DNA from: Spartobacteria bacterium
Lineage (GTDB): Bacteria > Verrucomicrobiota > Verrucomicrobiia > Chthoniobacterales > UBA10450
Length of the DNA: 64,000 nucleotides
NCBI GenBank assembly: GCA_003169695.1
Contig: PNAS01000044.1
Location: forward strand, 1-64,000
Reading direction: 5' to 3'
The notes under the pieces are model-generated. The model saw nothing but the letters and a program-made list of their open reading frames with translations, was not told the DNA's origin and searched no databases. The position numbers and the translations under genes are program-made. Shown piece by piece: positions 9,768 to 48,607 of the stretch (positions are counted from its first letter, which is position 1; every line of letters begins with the position of its first letter).

Positions 9768-11524
9768 ATCTGCACAACTTCTTCGCCGAGCTGAAGCGAC
9801 GCAACGTTTACAAAGTCGCGGTCGCCTACGCGGTGGTCGGCTGGTTGGTGATACAAGTCACGGCGACCATTGTTCCGGCACTGCATCTTCCTGATGGCCT
9901 AACGACTGCGGTTGTGGTGCTGACTTTGGTCGGCTTTCCGGTTGCGCTCGTTATCGCGTGGGCCTTCGAAATGACGCCGGAAGGGATGAAGCGAACTGAA
10001 AATGTTTCGCCCGATGAAGTCATTCCCCAATGGAGCAAACGAAAATTTGCCGCGCTCATTATCGGCATCGCGGTAATTGCCGCTGGCCTCCTCGCTTTTC
10101 AATTGTTGCGCTTTTCAAGATCGACAATCACTGCGACTGCTGACGCCAAATCGATCGCGGTGCTGCCGTTTGTGAACATGAGCGCGGATAAAAACGACGA
10201 GTATTTGAGTGACGGGATGACCGAGGAATTGATCAATGTGCTGTCGAAGGTGCCGGGATTGCGCGTGCCAGGACGAACATCCTGTTTTGCGTTCAAGGGC
10301 AAAAACGAAGAGGACATCTTTCGTAAAGTCGGCGATCAGCTGCACGTGGGCACGGTGTTGGAAGGAAGCGTGCGCAAAGCCGACGAGAAACTGCGCGTGA
10401 CCGCTCAGCTGATCAATGTGAGCGACGGTTATCATCTCTGGTCGAGGGATTATGACGGTGACGTAAAGGACATTCTCAATTTTCAGAGCAGCGTGGCCGA
10501 GCAAGTAGTGCAGGCCTTGCAAGTGCATCTTGGCGCTGAAGCGGCGCGCGCATTATCAAAGAAACCGACGGAGAATCCGGAAGCACATCGACTCTATTTG
10601 CTGGGGCGGTACGAGTTCGCCAAGTACACGCAGACCGGCTGGAATAATGCGATCCGTTATTACGAGGAGGCGCTGCGAATTGATCCTGAATTTGCGCTGG
10701 CCTACTGCGGATTGGCTGACAACTACGCTTACATGGGAAGCGTGGTGATGCCGGAGAAGGAAGCCATCGCAAAGGAAAAGGAATTTGCCCAAAAGGCGCT
10801 GGAACTCGATCCGGAACTGGCGGAGGCGCACATGTCCTTCGCCCTGACACTCGTCGCTGATTATGATTGGCGGAATGGTCTGAAAGAATTCGATCGCGCG
10901 CTCGAACTGAATCCGAATCTGGCATTCGCCTATGAGTTACAAGCCTGGACCGTGAACGGGCTTGGTCGATTCGACGAGGCGATTGCCAAGACCAGGAAAG
11001 CGGTCGAACTCGATCCGCTGAATCCGTTCTTTCAAATGAGTTTGAGCTTCTTCCAGTATTGGGCACGTCAATACGACGACGCGATCCCGCAAGCCAGAAA
11101 GACTCTGGCGATGGATCCGAATTCAGCGATCAGCCACGTTTTGTTAGGCCTCTCTTTCCTTAAGAGAGGCGACACGACCGGCGCCATCGCGGAATTGCAA
11201 AACTCCAAAACTCCGGATCCCGGCGCGTGGTATCAAGGATTCCTCGGCTACGCTTATGCCATCTCCGGAGATCGGGCGAAAGCCGAGCAGTCACTGCGCG
11301 AGCTCGAAGAGGTTGCGAAACGGCAATACGTCAGTCCAACGGCGTTCGCGACGATCTATCTTGGACTTGGCCAAAAAGAAAAATGTTTGGATTGGCTGGA
11401 AAAATCTTACGAGCAGCAGGACAGCGCGTGTTGGTATATTAAGATTGATCAGATCTACGACAGCGTTCGCAACGAGCCGCGCTTCCAGGCGCTCGTGAAA
11501 AAAATCTTTGGCGAAGAACAATGA
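9764..11524 (+). CDS. TolB-like domain/TPR membrane protein, array member 6
   Basis: The start is the ATG at 9764 (ATGA overlap with the previous stop), giving 586 residues beginning MNLHNFFAELKRRNVYKVA; a longer reading from 9698 would only re-read the upstream gene. The membrane domain is a further subtype (VVGWLVIQVTATIVPALHLP). The TolB-like domain begins KSIAVLPFVNMSADKNDEYL, closely matching member 1, and contains VGTVLEGSVRK and LWSRDYDGD. TPRs follow, with a closing IYDSVRNEPRFQALV. The stop overlaps the next start by 4 bp. Confidence 0.85.
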   Translation: MNLHNFFAELKRRNVYKVAVAYAVVGWLVIQVTATIVPALHLPDGLTTAVVVLTLVGFPVALVIAWAFEMTPEGMKRTENVSPDEVIPQWSKRKFAALIIGIAVIAAGLLAFQLLRFSRSTITATADAKSIAVLPFVNMSADKNDEYLSDGMTEELINVLSKVPGLRVPGRTSCFAFKGKNEEDIFRKVGDQLHVGTVLEGSVRKADEKLRVTAQLINVSDGYHLWSRDYDGDVKDILNFQSSVAEQVVQALQVHLGAEAARALSKKPTENPEAHRLYLLGRYEFAKYTQTGWNNAIRYYEEALRIDPEFALAYCGLADNYAYMGSVVMPEKEAIAKEKEFAQKALELDPELAEAHMSFALTLVADYDWRNGLKEFDRALELNPNLAFAYELQAWTVNGLGRFDEAIAKTRKAVELDPLNPFFQMSLSFFQYWARQYDDAIPQARKTLAMDPNSAISHVLLGLSFLKRGDTTGAIAELQNSKTPDPGAWYQGFLGYAYAISGDRAKAEQSLRELEEVAKRQYVSPTAFATIYLGLGQKEKCLDWLEKSYEQQDSACWYIKIDQIYDSVRNEPRFQALVKKIFGEEQ

Positions 11525-44222: not shown

Positions 44223-44686
44223 GCTCACAAGCACATTCTAAGAACCTGCGTCTGCATCGCTGGACTGGTGCATCAGCCACTTTCTTCATCACTAAGTCGC
44301 TACATCCTAAGAGACCATTTCTCGATCCGGAGGCGCGCGCGATTGTTATCTCCGCATTTCTTTTCGCGGTGGATGATAAACGCATTTACTTGCGCGCCTT
44401 CGTTGTCATGCCTGATCATTGGCATGCGCTCTTCGCATTACGCGAGCCATGGACGTTGCCCAAATTCATGCACGACTTCATGAGCTATGTGGCACGAAAA
44501 ACCAGTTACTTGCTCAGCACGCAGGACACGGCTTGGCAAGACGGCTACTACGGCACTCACGTCAAGACAGCCAGGCAGTTTGAGTACGTTGCTTACTACA
44601 TTGAGCAGAATCCGGTTGTGAAAGGATTAGTGGATTCAGCCGAACAGTGGGATGCAAGTAGTGCAAGCTGCAAGGATATCGGGTAG
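44219..44686 (+). CDS. REP-associated tyrosine transposase (RAYT), C-terminus altered by an insertion
   Basis: From the GTG at 44219 the protein has 155 residues. The Y1-transposase HUH motif is VVMPDHWHALF and the catalytic Tyr is likely in QFEYVAYYIEQNPV. RAYTs recognise REP hairpins and cleave single-stranded DNA, and inverted REPs flank this gene. An IS1-like element entered near its 3' end, so the protein now ends CKDIG; the original end CKDIVTDPWPLIYG can be read across the right junction (48568-48607). All catalytic residues lie upstream of the insertion. Confidence 0.88.
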   Translation: MSSQAHSKNLRLHRWTGASATFFITKSLHPKRPFLDPEARAIVISAFLFAVDDKRIYLRAFVVMPDHWHALFALREPWTLPKFMHDFMSYVARKTSYLLSTQDTAWQDGYYGTHVKTARQFEYVAYYIEQNPVVKGLVDSAEQWDASSASCKDIG

Positions 44687-44702
44687 TGTCCTAATTTGAA
44701 AT
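44682..44702 (+). repeat. Left inverted repeat of the IS1-like element
   Basis: The 21-bp end is an exact inverted match to 48547-48567. It begins GGTAGTGTCC immediately after the target copy GGATATCG. Beyond 21 bp the two ends no longer match. Confidence 0.92.
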
Positions 44703-44880
44703 TTACTAGCGTCCATCGCGGACTCGACAATCGAAATATTTGTATAGGCCTATGATGCATTAAGCGTAATCGGCCCGCACTTTTTATATCTTGTTTGTAA
44801 GAACGCCGCTTAAGAAATGACTTCTTTTCGTCAGAAAAGGTTTGCACCCAAGCAGGATTCTGGGCAAAACGCGGTGAATT

Positions 44881-45288
44881 ATGTCCTCCAGAATAATGAA
44901 GTGGCTGTTTTTCAGCGTACTCGTCTCGCTTGTTCCGCTCGTGTTATCCGGTTTAATATTACGTGACCATGGGCTTCTGAAGTCAATGAGCGACGTATGG
45001 GCACGCGGAGAGTTGTTTTTGATCTCTCTAATCGGAACTGCGGCTGCCGTAGGGGATTTGATCACGTCCAAGACCACTCACTACAAAAGGAAAATGGCCA
45101 TTGTTGGCCTGGCTGGGATTTTGGGCCTCGTTGTGACTTGCTGGTATGTCGAACTCACTTCAAACGCTATTCTGACCGTGGCGGGCCAGCCAACCACATT
45201 ACAAGCCAATATTCTGGCATATGCTCCCTGGGCCTATGGATGCTCTTTGGTTCTCGGGCTGGCCTGTGTCATGCTCCCTCCCCATTGA
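44881..45288 (+). CDS. Small multi-pass membrane protein (transposon passenger)
   Basis: The 135-residue protein has four hydrophobic segments (LFFSVLVSLVPLVLSGLILR; ELFLISLIGTAAAVGDLI; MAIVGLAGILGLVVTCWYVE; WAYGCSLVLGLACVML). It lies within the IS1-like element near its left end and is not a transposase. No known family is recognised, so its benefit to the element or host is unknown. Confidence 0.6.
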   Translation: MSSRIMKWLFFSVLVSLVPLVLSGLILRDHGLLKSMSDVWARGELFLISLIGTAAAVGDLITSKTTHYKRKMAIVGLAGILGLVVTCWYVELTSNAILTVAGQPTTLQANILAYAPWAYGCSLVLGLACVMLPPH

Positions 45289-45330
45289 CAAACTCAACGA
45301 AAATATGAAAAACTGATCTAAGAATACGTT

Positions 45331-45525
45331 ATGAACTTTGTGCTAATACTTATTTGCGTCTTTGTTTCTTTGACTGCGTTTACCATTTCGGCGACCACCC
45401 GTCGTCCAGAAAGTCGCTCTAACGGCTTTATTGAGAAGCGCGATGTACGTGATTTGCGACGTACCGAACAGTTCCACGAGAGCGAAAAAAGCACCACCCA
45501 GAATCCCCAGAGCGCACGGACTTAG
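45331..45525 (+). CDS. Short single-helix membrane protein (passenger)
   Basis: The 64-residue reading has an N-terminal helix (VLILICVFVSLTAFTISATT) and a charged tail. It follows the preceding membrane protein by 42 bp on the same strand, so the two may be co-expressed. Evidence is limited to length, position and the hydrophobic segment. Confidence 0.4.
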   Translation: MNFVLILICVFVSLTAFTISATTRRPESRSNGFIEKRDVRDLRRTEQFHESEKSTTQNPQSART

Positions 45526-45833
45526 GCACGCGTCTTTCTGACCGTTTTGCCTTTTGCAGCAATCGCTACCTTAACGGCGGTCTCGGCTGAATCTACCGGG
45601 GGAATCTCCAAAACCACCACGGTCTTGGTTTCTTTCCCTTCCTCATATTGCCACGCATAGGCTCGTTTGGCGTTGGGATGGCCGATCAGATCAAACACCT
45701 CGACAGTCCCTTGCCACGCTGTCAGTCCCTCGAAAACTTCATGGACTGGCTCGGAGGCTACGTGCTTCGCCTCGCAGTCATATTTCGCCCTGATTAGGCC
45801 CTCTAACCCTGGGTTGATATTGTCACGCTGCAT
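45522..45833 (-). CDS. Small soluble protein downstream of the transposase
   Basis: The 103-residue protein (MQRDNINPGLEGLIRAKYDC ... EPVHEVFEGLTAWQGTVEVF) overlaps the end of the transposase gene by 11 bp on the same strand. Coupled translation suggests it helps the transposase or is an accessory of the element. No family is recognised. Confidence 0.65.
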   Translation of the reverse strand: MQRDNINPGLEGLIRAKYDCEAKHVASEPVHEVFEGLTAWQGTVEVFDLIGHPNAKRAYAWQYEEGKETKTVVVLEIPPVDSAETAVKVAIAAKGKTVRKTRA

Positions 45834-46650
45834 TGACCAAATCTCCCACCGTCCACGCGCTGCTCTCGATTCCAGCGGCCTGCGCTGGCGTGCAGCGGAG
45901 CGAGCCGTGAGTTTTCACAAGGTTGTAATACGCGATATTGAGCGCGATTGCCGCTTTGAAATTCGGCAGTTTTTTCGAGAACGCCAGCGTCAAACGAGCA
46001 AGACGTTTGCAATGCGTGCGCATCGTGAGGTTCGCTCGTTCGATGTATGACGTGCAAATATGGTCTGGATTCGGAGCACCATTGATCGGGGTTTTAGTAA
46101 CGGCCCGCAGTTCGCCGGGACTGTACCTACGTTGCACTTCTTGCCCCGACGGGGTTGAGTATTCTTTTACGATTTGGGCATAGTCCACGACTGCGCCGAA
46201 AGCGTTTTCAACCGCATCCTTGTATTTGTCCATCCCATCGGTGGAAAGTTGAATCCGGTTGTTCAACCGTCCCGCCAAATCGTCCATGAACCAATGAGCG
46301 TGATAACGGTCACGCTGACCGACGATGAAAGAGGGAATCAATTTTGTCACGGGGTCGATGCTCATAAACGTCCACACGTCGCCAATCCCGCGCGTCCGAT
46401 CTGTCATCGTCGCATTGCGCCTTTTTTTGCCGATGAATCCCCAGATTTCGTCAACCTCGATACGGGAGCAAGTCAGACCGCGCATTTTTTGATCGAGAAT
46501 TTGCGCGCATGTTTCACCGACGCGCATTCCAAGGCGCATGATCGTATCGCGATGGATTTCAGTCATGCGCTCGATTGAACGAATCGAATTGCCCTCTGCG
46601 AGCGCGCTAATCACTGCCACTTGTTTTTCTTTGGTCAGGGTGTTTGCCAT
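45823..46650 (-). CDS. IS1-family-like DDE transposase
   Basis: The 275-residue protein has a helix-turn-helix start (NSIRSIERMTEIHRDTIMRL) and a DDE-type catalytic core: EVDEIWGFIGKKR (Asp), QLSTDGMDKYKDAV (Asp) and TSYIERANLTMRTHCKRLAR (Glu). The ERANLTMR..KRLAR segment matches the InsB end of IS1. It is encoded in one frame, with no InsA/InsB shift. It should cut and join the 21-bp ends found at 44682 and 48567. Confidence 0.88.
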   Translation of the reverse strand: MANTLTKEKQVAVISALAEGNSIRSIERMTEIHRDTIMRLGMRVGETCAQILDQKMRGLTCSRIEVDEIWGFIGKKRRNATMTDRTRGIGDVWTFMSIDPVTKLIPSFIVGQRDRYHAHWFMDDLAGRLNNRIQLSTDGMDKYKDAVENAFGAVVDYAQIVKEYSTPSGQEVQRRYSPGELRAVTKTPINGAPNPDHICTSYIERANLTMRTHCKRLARLTLAFSKKLPNFKAAIALNIAYYNLVKTHGSLRCTPAQAAGIESSAWTVGDLVNAA

Positions 46651-46669
46651 AAATTTCTTTCTGGACTTA

Positions 46670-46717
46670 TTGTGCTACAGAAATATATTAGGTCAAGACA
46701 TTTTTGTGCTACAGAAA
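46670..46717. promoter_or_regulatory. Repeated operator-like motif between divergent transposase and CopG-like genes
   Basis: TTGTGCTACAGAAA occurs at 46670-46683 and again at 46704-46717, and the inverted core TGTAGCACA is at 46908-46916. The repeats sit in the divergent control region of the transposase and the small CopG-like protein and could be the binding sites of that protein. The second copy covers the GTG proposed as its start. Confidence 0.5.
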
Positions 46718-46897
46718 AGAAAATCTAAAAAAGCTGTTATCCTCGGCCGTCCGAAGTTACCCGCAGGGGCAGCGAAGGAGCACACGCTCCGCGCACGCGT
46801 CTCCTTGGATGAACTCAGCCGATTCAAGGCAGCGGCAAAGCGAACCGGGAAGACATTGCCCGTTTGGGTAAGAAACACATTGATTGACGCATCATGA
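46706..46897 (+). CDS. Small CopG/ribbon-helix-helix-like protein
   Basis: Starting at a GTG at 46706 the protein has 63 residues (KRKSKKAVILGRPKLPAGAA then KEHTLRARVSLDELSRFKAA and KRTGKTLPVWVRNTLIDAS). The short beta strand (HTLRARVS) followed by two helices resembles CopG/MobC-like DNA-binding proteins. It is divergent from the transposase, so it may regulate transposition. The start is uncertain. Confidence 0.55.
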   Translation: MLQKRKSKKAVILGRPKLPAGAAKEHTLRARVSLDELSRFKAAAKRTGKTLPVWVRNTLIDAS

Positions 46898-46923
46898 TAT
46901 GATAATTTGTAGCACAGAAAAGA

Positions 46924-46996
46924 TGGAGCGGACGGGAGTTGGACCCGCACAAGCCGGTGTAAATCCTGCTGGTTCTACCGTTAAACCTACCGCCCC
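46924..46996 (-). tRNA. tRNA-like gene, anticodon UUA, inside the transposon
   Basis: The minus strand folds as a 73-nt cloverleaf: acceptor GGGGCGG/CCGCTCC (one G-U pair), U8 A9, D arm GGTT/AACC with a GG-containing loop, anticodon arm GCAGG/CCGGC (one A-G mismatch), loop AUUUACA, variable UUGU, and T arm GCGGG/CCCGU with loop UCCAACU. A73 is the discriminator; CCA is not encoded. The D and T arms look like bacterial tRNA-Gly. With the loop at positions 32-38 the anticodon is UUA, which pairs with the UAA stop codon. The mismatch and C37 raise doubt about activity. Confidence 0.55.
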
Positions 46997-47058
46997 AAGT
47001 TTCTTGATGATGAAGTGGCAGTCTGCCGGACGGATTGGACGTTCCGACAACTGCTTTT

Positions 47059-47133
47059 AGCGCCTGTTGGCCGGGAGAGGTTCTCTGATCAGGATAGACT
47101 CTCCCGGCCTGCCACGCCCAACGATCCGGCGCT
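47059..47133. other. 75-nt stepped hairpin
   Basis: AGCGCC (47059-47064) pairs with GGCGCT (47128-47133), GTTGG with CCAAC, and CCGGGAGAG (47071-47079) with CTCTCCCGG (47099-47107). The long base-paired stem is far more ordered than chance. It lies in the 320-bp gap between the tRNA-like gene and the 47318 gene. It could be a non-coding RNA, a terminator-like structure or a decayed recombination site. Nothing else is recognised in the gap. Confidence 0.45.
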
Positions 47134-47317
47134 TCGCAACCAAGGGGCACGCTGTTCTTCTCTGGGTCATTTGAGAATTAGAGCACGGCAAAGACAAACA
47201 CGCAATAACATTCTCTCGTGCTGTCTTAAGACAGCGAGACAGTCATGTCTCCAGAAATCAGTAGACAGGGTTTATTTTGTGCTCTAGATTGTCGAACCAA
47301 CACTGGACTTAACAACC

Positions 47318-48259
47318 ATGAATGACCCTCAAAAACCCTCAAATTCACCCGCCAGCAAGACGAAACGGCAAACTATGCGCAGTCCCAACTATCCGGCAAT
47401 CAGCCTGCGCGAAGCAGTCGAAGCCATCAAAAAGCTTTGGGATAAAGAAAACCGAAGCCCTGTTGCGTTCAACGTAGCGGCGGGGCATCTGGGCTATAAA
47501 CCTACGAGCAGTGGAGCCGCTCTTTCAGTCGCGGCGCTGAAGAAATACGGCTTTGTTGCAGCGGATGGCGGCGGATCGCGCTTGATTCGCCTTACGGATG
47601 CGGCTGTTGAAGTTCTCAAACACTACGGAAATGAAGAGGAGCTCATCCCCTTGCTCAAAGAAGCCGCCCTACGTCCCGAAATCCTCCGGGAGCTGTTTGA
47701 GCAAAAGCGCCATTCATCCCCAGAAAGCATCCTCAATTATTTGGAATTTGATAGGAAATTTACCAAGACTGCGGCTCAATTGGTGCTGAACATTTTCCTA
47801 GACACGATTTCTTTTGCAAAGTTTACAGAATCGGATAAGGTGCAAGACATCCAGAATGAAAAAGCTGATCCGAAGTCCACAAAAAGCGAAATTCCTGAGC
47901 GTCTTGATAAGAATCTGGCAGAGAGGGTCAAACCACCACCACCCGCTCCAATGACACCAAACATTCGCTATTTGCCGATTCCGCTCGATATAGGGGACGC
48001 CCCGATTCCCGTTGGGATGTCGGATGGGGATTTCGATTTACTTCTGGATACGCTGAAGCTGTGGAAAAAGAAGATCGTTCGTCCCGAACAGCCGAACCCT
48101 GCTAAAGCGCTTACGTTCCCGCGCAATGCCATCTGGAAGAATAAAGACCATGATGTGCCGGTCGTGATTACGGACATCGCTGGAGATAAGGACGGCGTTC
48201 GTTATTACCAATCCTCAACCGGCACAGGCATTCCGGCGTCGGAACTGAAGTTTGAATAA
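47318..48259 (+). CDS. Hypothetical passenger protein with winged-helix-like N-terminus
   Basis: The 313-residue protein has a predicted winged-helix-like segment (NYPAISLREAVEAIKKLWDK ... YKPTSSGAALSVAALKKYGF) followed by a helical region and a Pro-rich C-terminal half with RYLPIPLDIGDAPIPVGMSD. Proteins of this type appear in mobile regions of soil bacteria. It shares a 1-bp TAATG overlap with the next gene, so they form a unit in the transposon. Function is unknown. Confidence 0.65.
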   Translation: MNDPQKPSNSPASKTKRQTMRSPNYPAISLREAVEAIKKLWDKENRSPVAFNVAAGHLGYKPTSSGAALSVAALKKYGFVAADGGGSRLIRLTDAAVEVLKHYGNEEELIPLLKEAALRPEILRELFEQKRHSSPESILNYLEFDRKFTKTAAQLVLNIFLDTISFAKFTESDKVQDIQNEKADPKSTKSEIPERLDKNLAERVKPPPPAPMTPNIRYLPIPLDIGDAPIPVGMSDGDFDLLLDTLKLWKKKIVRPEQPNPAKALTFPRNAIWKNKDHDVPVVITDIAGDKDGVRYYQSSTGTGIPASELKFE

Positions 48260-48558
48260 TGCCTCTCTTTCCTGAAGAACCGAATTGGGACGATCTTCAT
48301 GGCATACCGGCAGAACGCGTCGCCGCAGAAGTGTGGGATACAGATGGCAAAATACTCTCCAAAGGGGAGGCGCTGATTTTCCCTGACAACACGACAGCAA
48401 ATTTTTTCCCGCTAGATGCTGCCGAACCGGTTGCCATTCAGGGCCGCGCCAAAACCCTCTTTCTGATTGCGGGCGGCAGATCGTTATCCGTTTCCGCGAA
48501 ACTCTGTCCAGACGAAACGCCGCACGAGCCGCATCTTCACCTCGACATTTCAAATTAG
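48259..48558 (+). CDS. Small passenger protein ending in the right inverted repeat
   Basis: The 99-residue protein (MPLFPEEPNWDDLHGIPAER ... SAKLCPDETPHEPHLHLDIS) starts within the stop of the preceding gene. Its last codons and TAG stop lie inside the right inverted repeat. The reading frame is therefore tied to the transposon end. No family is recognised. Confidence 0.6.
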   Translation: MPLFPEEPNWDDLHGIPAERVAAEVWDTDGKILSKGEALIFPDNTTANFFPLDAAEPVAIQGRAKTLFLIAGGRSLSVSAKLCPDETPHEPHLHLDISN

Positions 48559-48567
48559 GACACTACC
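48547..48567 (-). repeat. Right inverted repeat of the IS1-like element
   Basis: The 21 bp are the exact reverse complement of 44682-44702 and are followed directly by the second copy of the target GGATATCG (48568-48575). Confidence 0.92.
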
Positions 48568-48607
48568 GGATATCGTTACTGATCCTTGGCCGCTGATTTA
48601 CGGCTGA
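48568..48607 (+). pseudogene. Displaced 3' end of the RAYT gene
   Basis: After the right target copy, the frame reads DIVTDPWPLIYG and TGA at 48605-48607. Joined to the left part at GGATATCG it restores the original end of the RAYT gene, showing that the transposon entered an intact gene. Confidence 0.75.

Follow-up and report, generated by a model that had tools for sequence, protein, structure and literature searches.

The window, the whole 64,000-nucleotide stretch of contig PNAS01000044.1 from a Spartobacteria bacterium that was analysed here, includes at positions 46924-46996 of the minus strand a sequence that folds as a tRNA with the anticodon UUA, which is complementary to the stop codon UAA as in a nonsense suppressor tRNA. 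The question raised by this locus is what such a tRNA does in a mobile element; the initial annotation had proposed a UAA suppressor inside a transposon and, as alternatives, a decayed tRNA or a tRNA mimic.

ARAGORN called a tRNA-Stop(tta) at 46922-46997 (minus strand) in the window, and covariance-model scoring with RF00005 gave 37.2 bits at exactly 46924-46996, above the gathering score of 29, both in a search of the short region and in a whole-genome search, which bears out the full cloverleaf. The fast Rfam filters skipped this tRNA in the scan of the 64-kb window, and its score is the weakest among the 50 RF00005 matches of the genome. The cloverleaf, which has a canonical 7/5 branch, reads GGGGCGG UA GGUU-UAACGGUAG-AACC A GCAGG-AUUUACA-CCGGC UUGU GCGGG-UCCAACU-CCCGU CCGCUCC A. 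The loop AUUUACA with its UUA triplet, C37 and the A29.G41 mismatch in the anticodon stem are all as first described; the Gly-tRNA-like identity then assigned had to be abandoned, since G3:U70 and A73 are the alanine set. G3:U70 with A73 is what alanyl-tRNA synthetase recognizes, the host tRNA-Ala follows the same rule, and the alanine, serine and leucine synthetases ignore the anticodon. Like allo-tRNAs, the purely alanine-type window tRNA pairs the identity elements for a synthetase blind to the anticodon (alanine) with an anticodon that is not cognate (UUA). The 12-bp acceptor branch in 8/4 or 9/3 form is absent from it, and between its D and T arms there is none of the messenger-like region with a tag reading frame, or of the pseudoknots, that define a tmRNA. 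Against 30 host tRNAs the best identity was 70%, so the window tRNA was not copied recently from one of these. Since its folding energy is unremarkable on its own (z -1.15), the evidence beyond chance for this tRNA is comparative and consists of enrichment in one slot of related elements and covariation of the acceptor stem.

The suspected location inside a transposon is borne out by 21-nt inverted repeats and an 8-bp target-site duplication, which together with a DDE_Tnp_IS1 transposase place the element in the IS1 family. Its features are as follows.

44674-44681: left copy of the 8-bp target-site duplication, GGATATCG
44682-48567: IS1-family transposon, 3,886 bp, with terminal inverted repeats, target duplication and PF03400 transposase
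44682-44702, plus strand: left terminal inverted repeat, GGTAGTGTCCTAATTTGAAAT, 21 nt
44881-45288, plus strand: 135-aa cargo ORF, membrane-protein-like sequence with only weak Pfam matches
45522-45833, minus strand: gene for a conserved protein of about 100 aa, overlapping the transposase stop; 49 tblastn matches in the loci collected at that stage
45823-46650, minus strand: IS1-family transposase, 275 aa (PF03400, E 1.1e-8; NF033558 below cut-off, 55.4 of 100 bits)
46706-46897, plus strand: gene for a small ribbon-helix-helix-like protein with a putative GTG start (weak NikA-like Pfam match, E 0.002, below cut-off)
46906-46923: repeat TTTGTAGCACAGAAAAGA adjoining the tRNA 3' end, a candidate operator belonging to a direct repeat family
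46924-46996, minus strand: alanine-type tRNA, anticodon UUA (ARAGORN, RF00005 and homologs)
47026-47050, minus strand: small hairpin with a UCCAA loop between the GC hairpin and the tRNA, seen by inspection of the window and related loci
47069-47109, minus strand: GC-rich hairpin 5' of the tRNA, found by folding, with a hairpin in the corresponding place in most related loci
47318-48259, plus strand: gene for a 313-aa cargo protein, homologs of which adjoin the tRNA in G002, L030 and L192
48259-48558, plus strand: 99-aa cargo ORF
48547-48567, minus strand: right terminal inverted repeat, 21 nt
48568-48575: right copy of the 8-bp target-site duplication, GGATATCG

The left terminal repeat sequence also terminates most related elements. 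The ribbon-helix-helix-like gene points away from the transposase and is convergent with the tRNA, and its homologs are present in related elements. Searches of Pfam, PHROGs, NCBIfam and PADLOC gave no family name for the 313-aa and the ~100-aa cargo proteins, and the 99-aa and 135-aa cargo genes likewise have none. The word that adjoins the tRNA also occurs at 46669-46686 and 46703-46720, in the transposase promoter, and a similar word is found at the matching spot beside the tRNA in related loci. Written as TGTGCTACA/TGTAGCACA, the word is repeated at these two positions, at 46906-46923 and at 47275-47288, that is, in the transposase promoter, past the tRNA and before the hairpin; it varies between elements (for example GTAATACGAAAA), and its copies are candidate operators of the ribbon-helix-helix protein. 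A match between the tRNA loop and this word was inconsistent and was dropped, and a kissing interaction of the tRNA loop with the loop of the GC hairpin, 9 nt being complementary in G002 only, is not general. The same genome has a second related element (L013, contig C1) whose transposase is 75% identical and which has kept the GC hairpin and only a remnant of the tRNA.

The slot of the tRNA, between the GC-rich hairpin and the transposase, is occupied likewise in dozens of related elements. Relatives of the transposase were gathered from genome contigs, viral contigs and whole genomes, the IMG/VR contigs among them being possibly host DNA, and a geometric scan specified a 7-bp acceptor stem and a T arm and left the loop and the position of the G.U pair free. 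Of 142 related transposases, from partly non-independent loci (L262-L265 are one element, L041 and L058 another), 33 had a tRNA fold in their upstream 600 nt, compared with 0.008 per 600 nt in control regions of the same loci, and later locus sets yielded further tRNA folds upstream of transposases. In sister species the same place holds a tRNA with the same UUA loop (G002) or with the loop UUAUACA (G007). Other copies of the element, where the initial annotation had suggested looking for it, thus carry the same tRNA with a conserved UUA anticodon, the opposite of a randomly mutated loop.

Some loci of this collection have further features. A viral contig (L088:10461-10740) includes the tRNA and the convergent ribbon-helix-helix gene beside a terminase large subunit gene, with no transposase within the available stretch and one imperfect IS end at 10994; phage carriage of the tRNA is represented by this single locus. 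Additional hairpins with UUCCAA or CUCCAA loops lie upstream of the tRNA in L027, L035, L038 and L042, and a second class II tRNA, with anticodon UCC, lies upstream in L035. Next to the transposase, the related IS1-type elements L028 and L031 have HNH-like peptides and L309 has a RES/Xre toxin-antitoxin pair.

All of the 33 aligned alanine-type tRNAs have G-C, G-C and G.U at pairs 1:72, 2:71 and 3:70 and A at position 73, the window tRNA having the same G3:U70 and A73, and covariation is seen at acceptor pairs 4-7, each of which occurs as 3 to 5 different pair types. In scans that did not require G3:U70, it was the sole G.U in every full alanine-type stem, L287 adding a second one. Between the window and G002 the identity is 94.5% for the tRNA, 80% for the ribbon-helix-helix gene, 75.9% for the transposase and 42% for the region past the hairpin, and pair 6:67 shows a compensatory change. 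The tRNA, conserved above the transposase and indeed the most conserved segment of the element, with a compensatory change in its acceptor stem, therefore does not fit the decayed tRNA that had been allowed for; decay is ruled out, and the alignment shows purifying selection on the window-type tRNA.

The anticodons of the 33 alanine-type homologs are UUA (24), CUA (6), UCA (1), AUA (1) and UUC (1), so that 31 read stop codons; four of the 33 were retrieved with the pattern TTTACA, and when these are set aside the figure is 27 of 29. In 28 sequences the covariation of the anticodon stem fits a 7-nt loop with the anticodon at positions 34-36 (31:39, p<0.0005; 29:41, 0.005; 27:43, 0.006; 28:42, 0.014), values that are optimistic because the test shuffles letters among related sequences; there was no signal at 26:44 and beyond. 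A valine reading, suggested by the UAC in the loop (compare the host tRNA-Val, UUUACAC), was rejected since the stem covaries in the UUA register; the pattern TTTACA...TCCA alone retrieves mostly ordinary tRNA-Val. Natural tRNAs ending in A36 carry A37. Position 37 of the alanine-type homologs is C in 31 of 33 and G in the other two, never A; position 33 is U (25), C (6) or G (2), and position 38 is A in 32. Most of the anticodon stems have a mismatch and about half of the set has a reduced D arm. C37 and the stem mismatch are recurrent features of the family rather than accidents of the window copy. An 8/4 reading is also possible for about ten relatives, and a 9/3 reading for L352.

The slot is also filled by tRNAs of other types, judged by eye on the basis of their length class and their base 73. 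In L262-L265 and L285 these are leucine-type class II tRNAs with UUA, A37 and a stem free of mismatches. L285 (L285:3515-4837) is compact: within 1.32 kb this IS1-type element, which has inverted repeats of its own and the 8-bp duplication AATCTCCC, showed no recognised features other than the leucine-type tRNA(UUA), the transposase and a small ORF. L330 likewise has a leucine-type body with UUA, and in L311 and L316 a tandem pair of UUA tRNAs, one of leucine type and one of serine type, lies 270-460 nt upstream of the transposase. The L352 tRNA, upstream of a transposase and adjoining a hairpin and a convergent small gene, is of the 9/3 serine type with the loop CUUUACA and an ochre anticodon, and a glutamine-like body in L236 has a loop readable as UUA with a bulge. 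Sense anticodons also occur among the slot tRNAs, including UAU, GUA, GCU, AGU and UGC: serine-like bodies have UAU (L249, L323) or GUA (L322, L332), a leucine-like body downstream of the transposase in L227 has GAA, and other bodies with sense anticodons are those of L239, L272, L275 and the glycine-like L351. Stop anticodons mainly on alanine, serine and leucine bodies are what is expected if these RNAs need charging plus a chosen anticodon.

These comparisons show a transposon with a fixed slot, purifying selection on the tRNA, an alanine identity set, stop-reading anticodons and other bodies that have come independently by the same anticodon. We lean toward the reading that the element carries an alanine-identity UUA tRNA that would be charged by the host and would act as a weak nonsense suppressor of UAA and UAG controlled by the element. 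The RNA would be transcribed and matured like a host tRNA, a host synthetase would charge it with alanine, and in its charged form it would decode ochre and amber codons inefficiently. The module would consist of the GC hairpin followed by the tRNA, often with the convergent ribbon-helix-helix gene, in one slot upstream of the transposase, a slot that IS1-family transposons appear to fill with tRNA bodies mostly of the types served by anticodon-blind synthetases (alanine, leucine, serine). The benefit, speculatively, could be the buffering of nonsense mutations in transposase copies or a dependence of the host on the element. In L026 and L360 the transposases are intact but for one in-frame TAG and both elements have a UUA tRNA, which fits such buffering; UUA-bearing elements do have more in-frame TAG, but not significantly so (p 0.098). 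Inspection of the transposase and cargo genes for in-frame stops or long post-stop extensions gave none that was consistent, and the check for in-frame UAA recommended by the initial annotation found no element gene requiring readthrough, so a readthrough target of the element's own was rejected.

C37, the variable U33 and the anticodon-stem mismatches argue for a tRNA that would decode weakly or for a mimic that would not decode. A charged non-decoding mimic is the chief rival of the suppressor reading and, although we consider it rather unlikely, accounts for several observations. Its alanine acceptor half would exploit host RNase P, CCA addition, AlaRS or EF-Tu while the conserved loop Y-U-A-C-A acts on another partner, and the RNA could be a decoy for the ribosome or the rescue pathway, or it could serve the transposon as a regulatory RNA, controlled in turn by the ribbon-helix-helix protein in a toxin-antitoxin-like arrangement. 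C37-A38 is as conserved as the anticodon, position 33 varies, the anticodon stem has mismatches and the D arm is reduced; one homolog (L192) passes the Rfam tmRNA cut-off with 47.9 bits and two others score 26-27, the whole messenger part being deleted; and the tail-to-tail arrangement with the ribbon-helix-helix gene is fixed in most alanine-type loci read. The RES/Xre pair beside the transposase of another family element points the same way, as does allo-tRNA-UAU, which has stem mismatches, is unusable in E. coli and is suspected of transposon or toxin-antitoxin ties (PMC7609411). However, a mimic leaves unexplained why UUA is also found where the body is of leucine or serine type and combines A37 with a canonical, perfectly paired stem (L262, L285), and why position 34 switches nearly always between stop-reading triplets only.

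The tRNA could also be a punctuation signal, the cleavage of which by tRNA-processing nucleases would cut transcripts entering from outside and spare the transposase unwanted expression. In both architectures seen the tRNA and the GC hairpin do separate the transposase promoter from the outer part of the element, but such a signal requires neither an invariant alanine identity nor stop anticodons, the tRNA is antisense in some elements (L033, L047, L330), and we regard this explanation as improbable. A decayed host tRNA acquired by chance would agree with the low tRNA score and the anticodon-stem mismatch; it is nevertheless very improbable given the same place in dozens of elements, the conservation, compensatory change and covariation described above, and the lack of a close match among the host tRNAs compared. 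tRNA genes often serve as attachment sites, which is the background for considering the sequence a docking site for integrases at the DNA level and not an RNA gene. This is extremely improbable, as covariation and identity elements indicate an RNA, and the element terminates, far away from the tRNA, in ordinary IS1 inverted repeats with duplications of 8-9 bp.

Among known systems the closest kind is that of the allo-tRNAs (Mukai et al. 2017, reviewed in PMC7609411 and PMC7590224), tRNAs of soil bacteria with serine or alanine identity and non-matching anticodons. Like the window tRNA, they have identity elements (serine, in some alanine G3:U70) that mismatch the anticodon, ochre anticodons included, the latter in the 9/3 form (PMC7609411); L352, with its 9/3 serine-type body and UUA, is such a tRNA in the transposon slot. 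The allo-tRNAs tested insert serine or alanine in E. coli (PMC7609411), two of those active in E. coli having AlaRS identity elements (PMC7609411, PMC7590224), and the abundant allo-tRNA-UAU group overlaps a transposon ORF (PMC7609411). In contrast to the window tRNA, which is 7/5 and purely alanine-type, allo-tRNAs have been described as 9/3 and 8/4; the 9/3 form was first seen in short metagenome reads (PMC7590224), and the papers on them (PMC7609411, PMC7590224) are without a context such as that of the window tRNA, a defined IS1-family element with known ends. The slot gives the allo-tRNAs what may be their genomic home. With the tRNA-like domain of tmRNA (RF00023) the alanine-type family shares G3:U70, A73 and the T arm, and about half of its homologs also share the reduced D loop; unlike tmRNA, its members have a short anticodon-like arm in place of the messenger part and pseudoknots, the window copy being a full cloverleaf. 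Because of the reduced D arms, the 8/4 readings and L192, which exceeds the tmRNA gathering score, the family appears to shade into tmRNA-like shapes.

The natural suppressor tRNAs on record are mostly those of recoded phages and of a few unusual lineages; in phages they accompany recoded stop codons in phage genes. The window tRNA shares with them the mobile element and the stop anticodon, but no recoded genes were seen in the elements studied here. With IS1-family transposons that have passenger genes, the elements share the DDE_Tnp_IS1 transposase, inverted repeats, 8-9 bp duplications and passengers; no report of tRNA passengers in this family was found in the literature searched.

As a wider reading, tentative but close to even in our estimation, IS1-family transposons across several phyla may keep stop-reading and some sense-recoding tRNAs on anticodon-blind bodies and thereby alter host decoding for their own benefit, this being both the genomic home and the raison d'être of the soil allo-tRNAs. 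Such a module raises the question of whether the transposon gains from softened termination or has turned a charged tRNA into a regulator. If the reading is true, transposons of a common family would, through this conserved module, be spreading the ability to read stop codons horizontally, and the origin of the allo-tRNAs would be explained. The slot tRNAs would also provide a ready-made natural collection of suppressors for alanine, serine and leucine.
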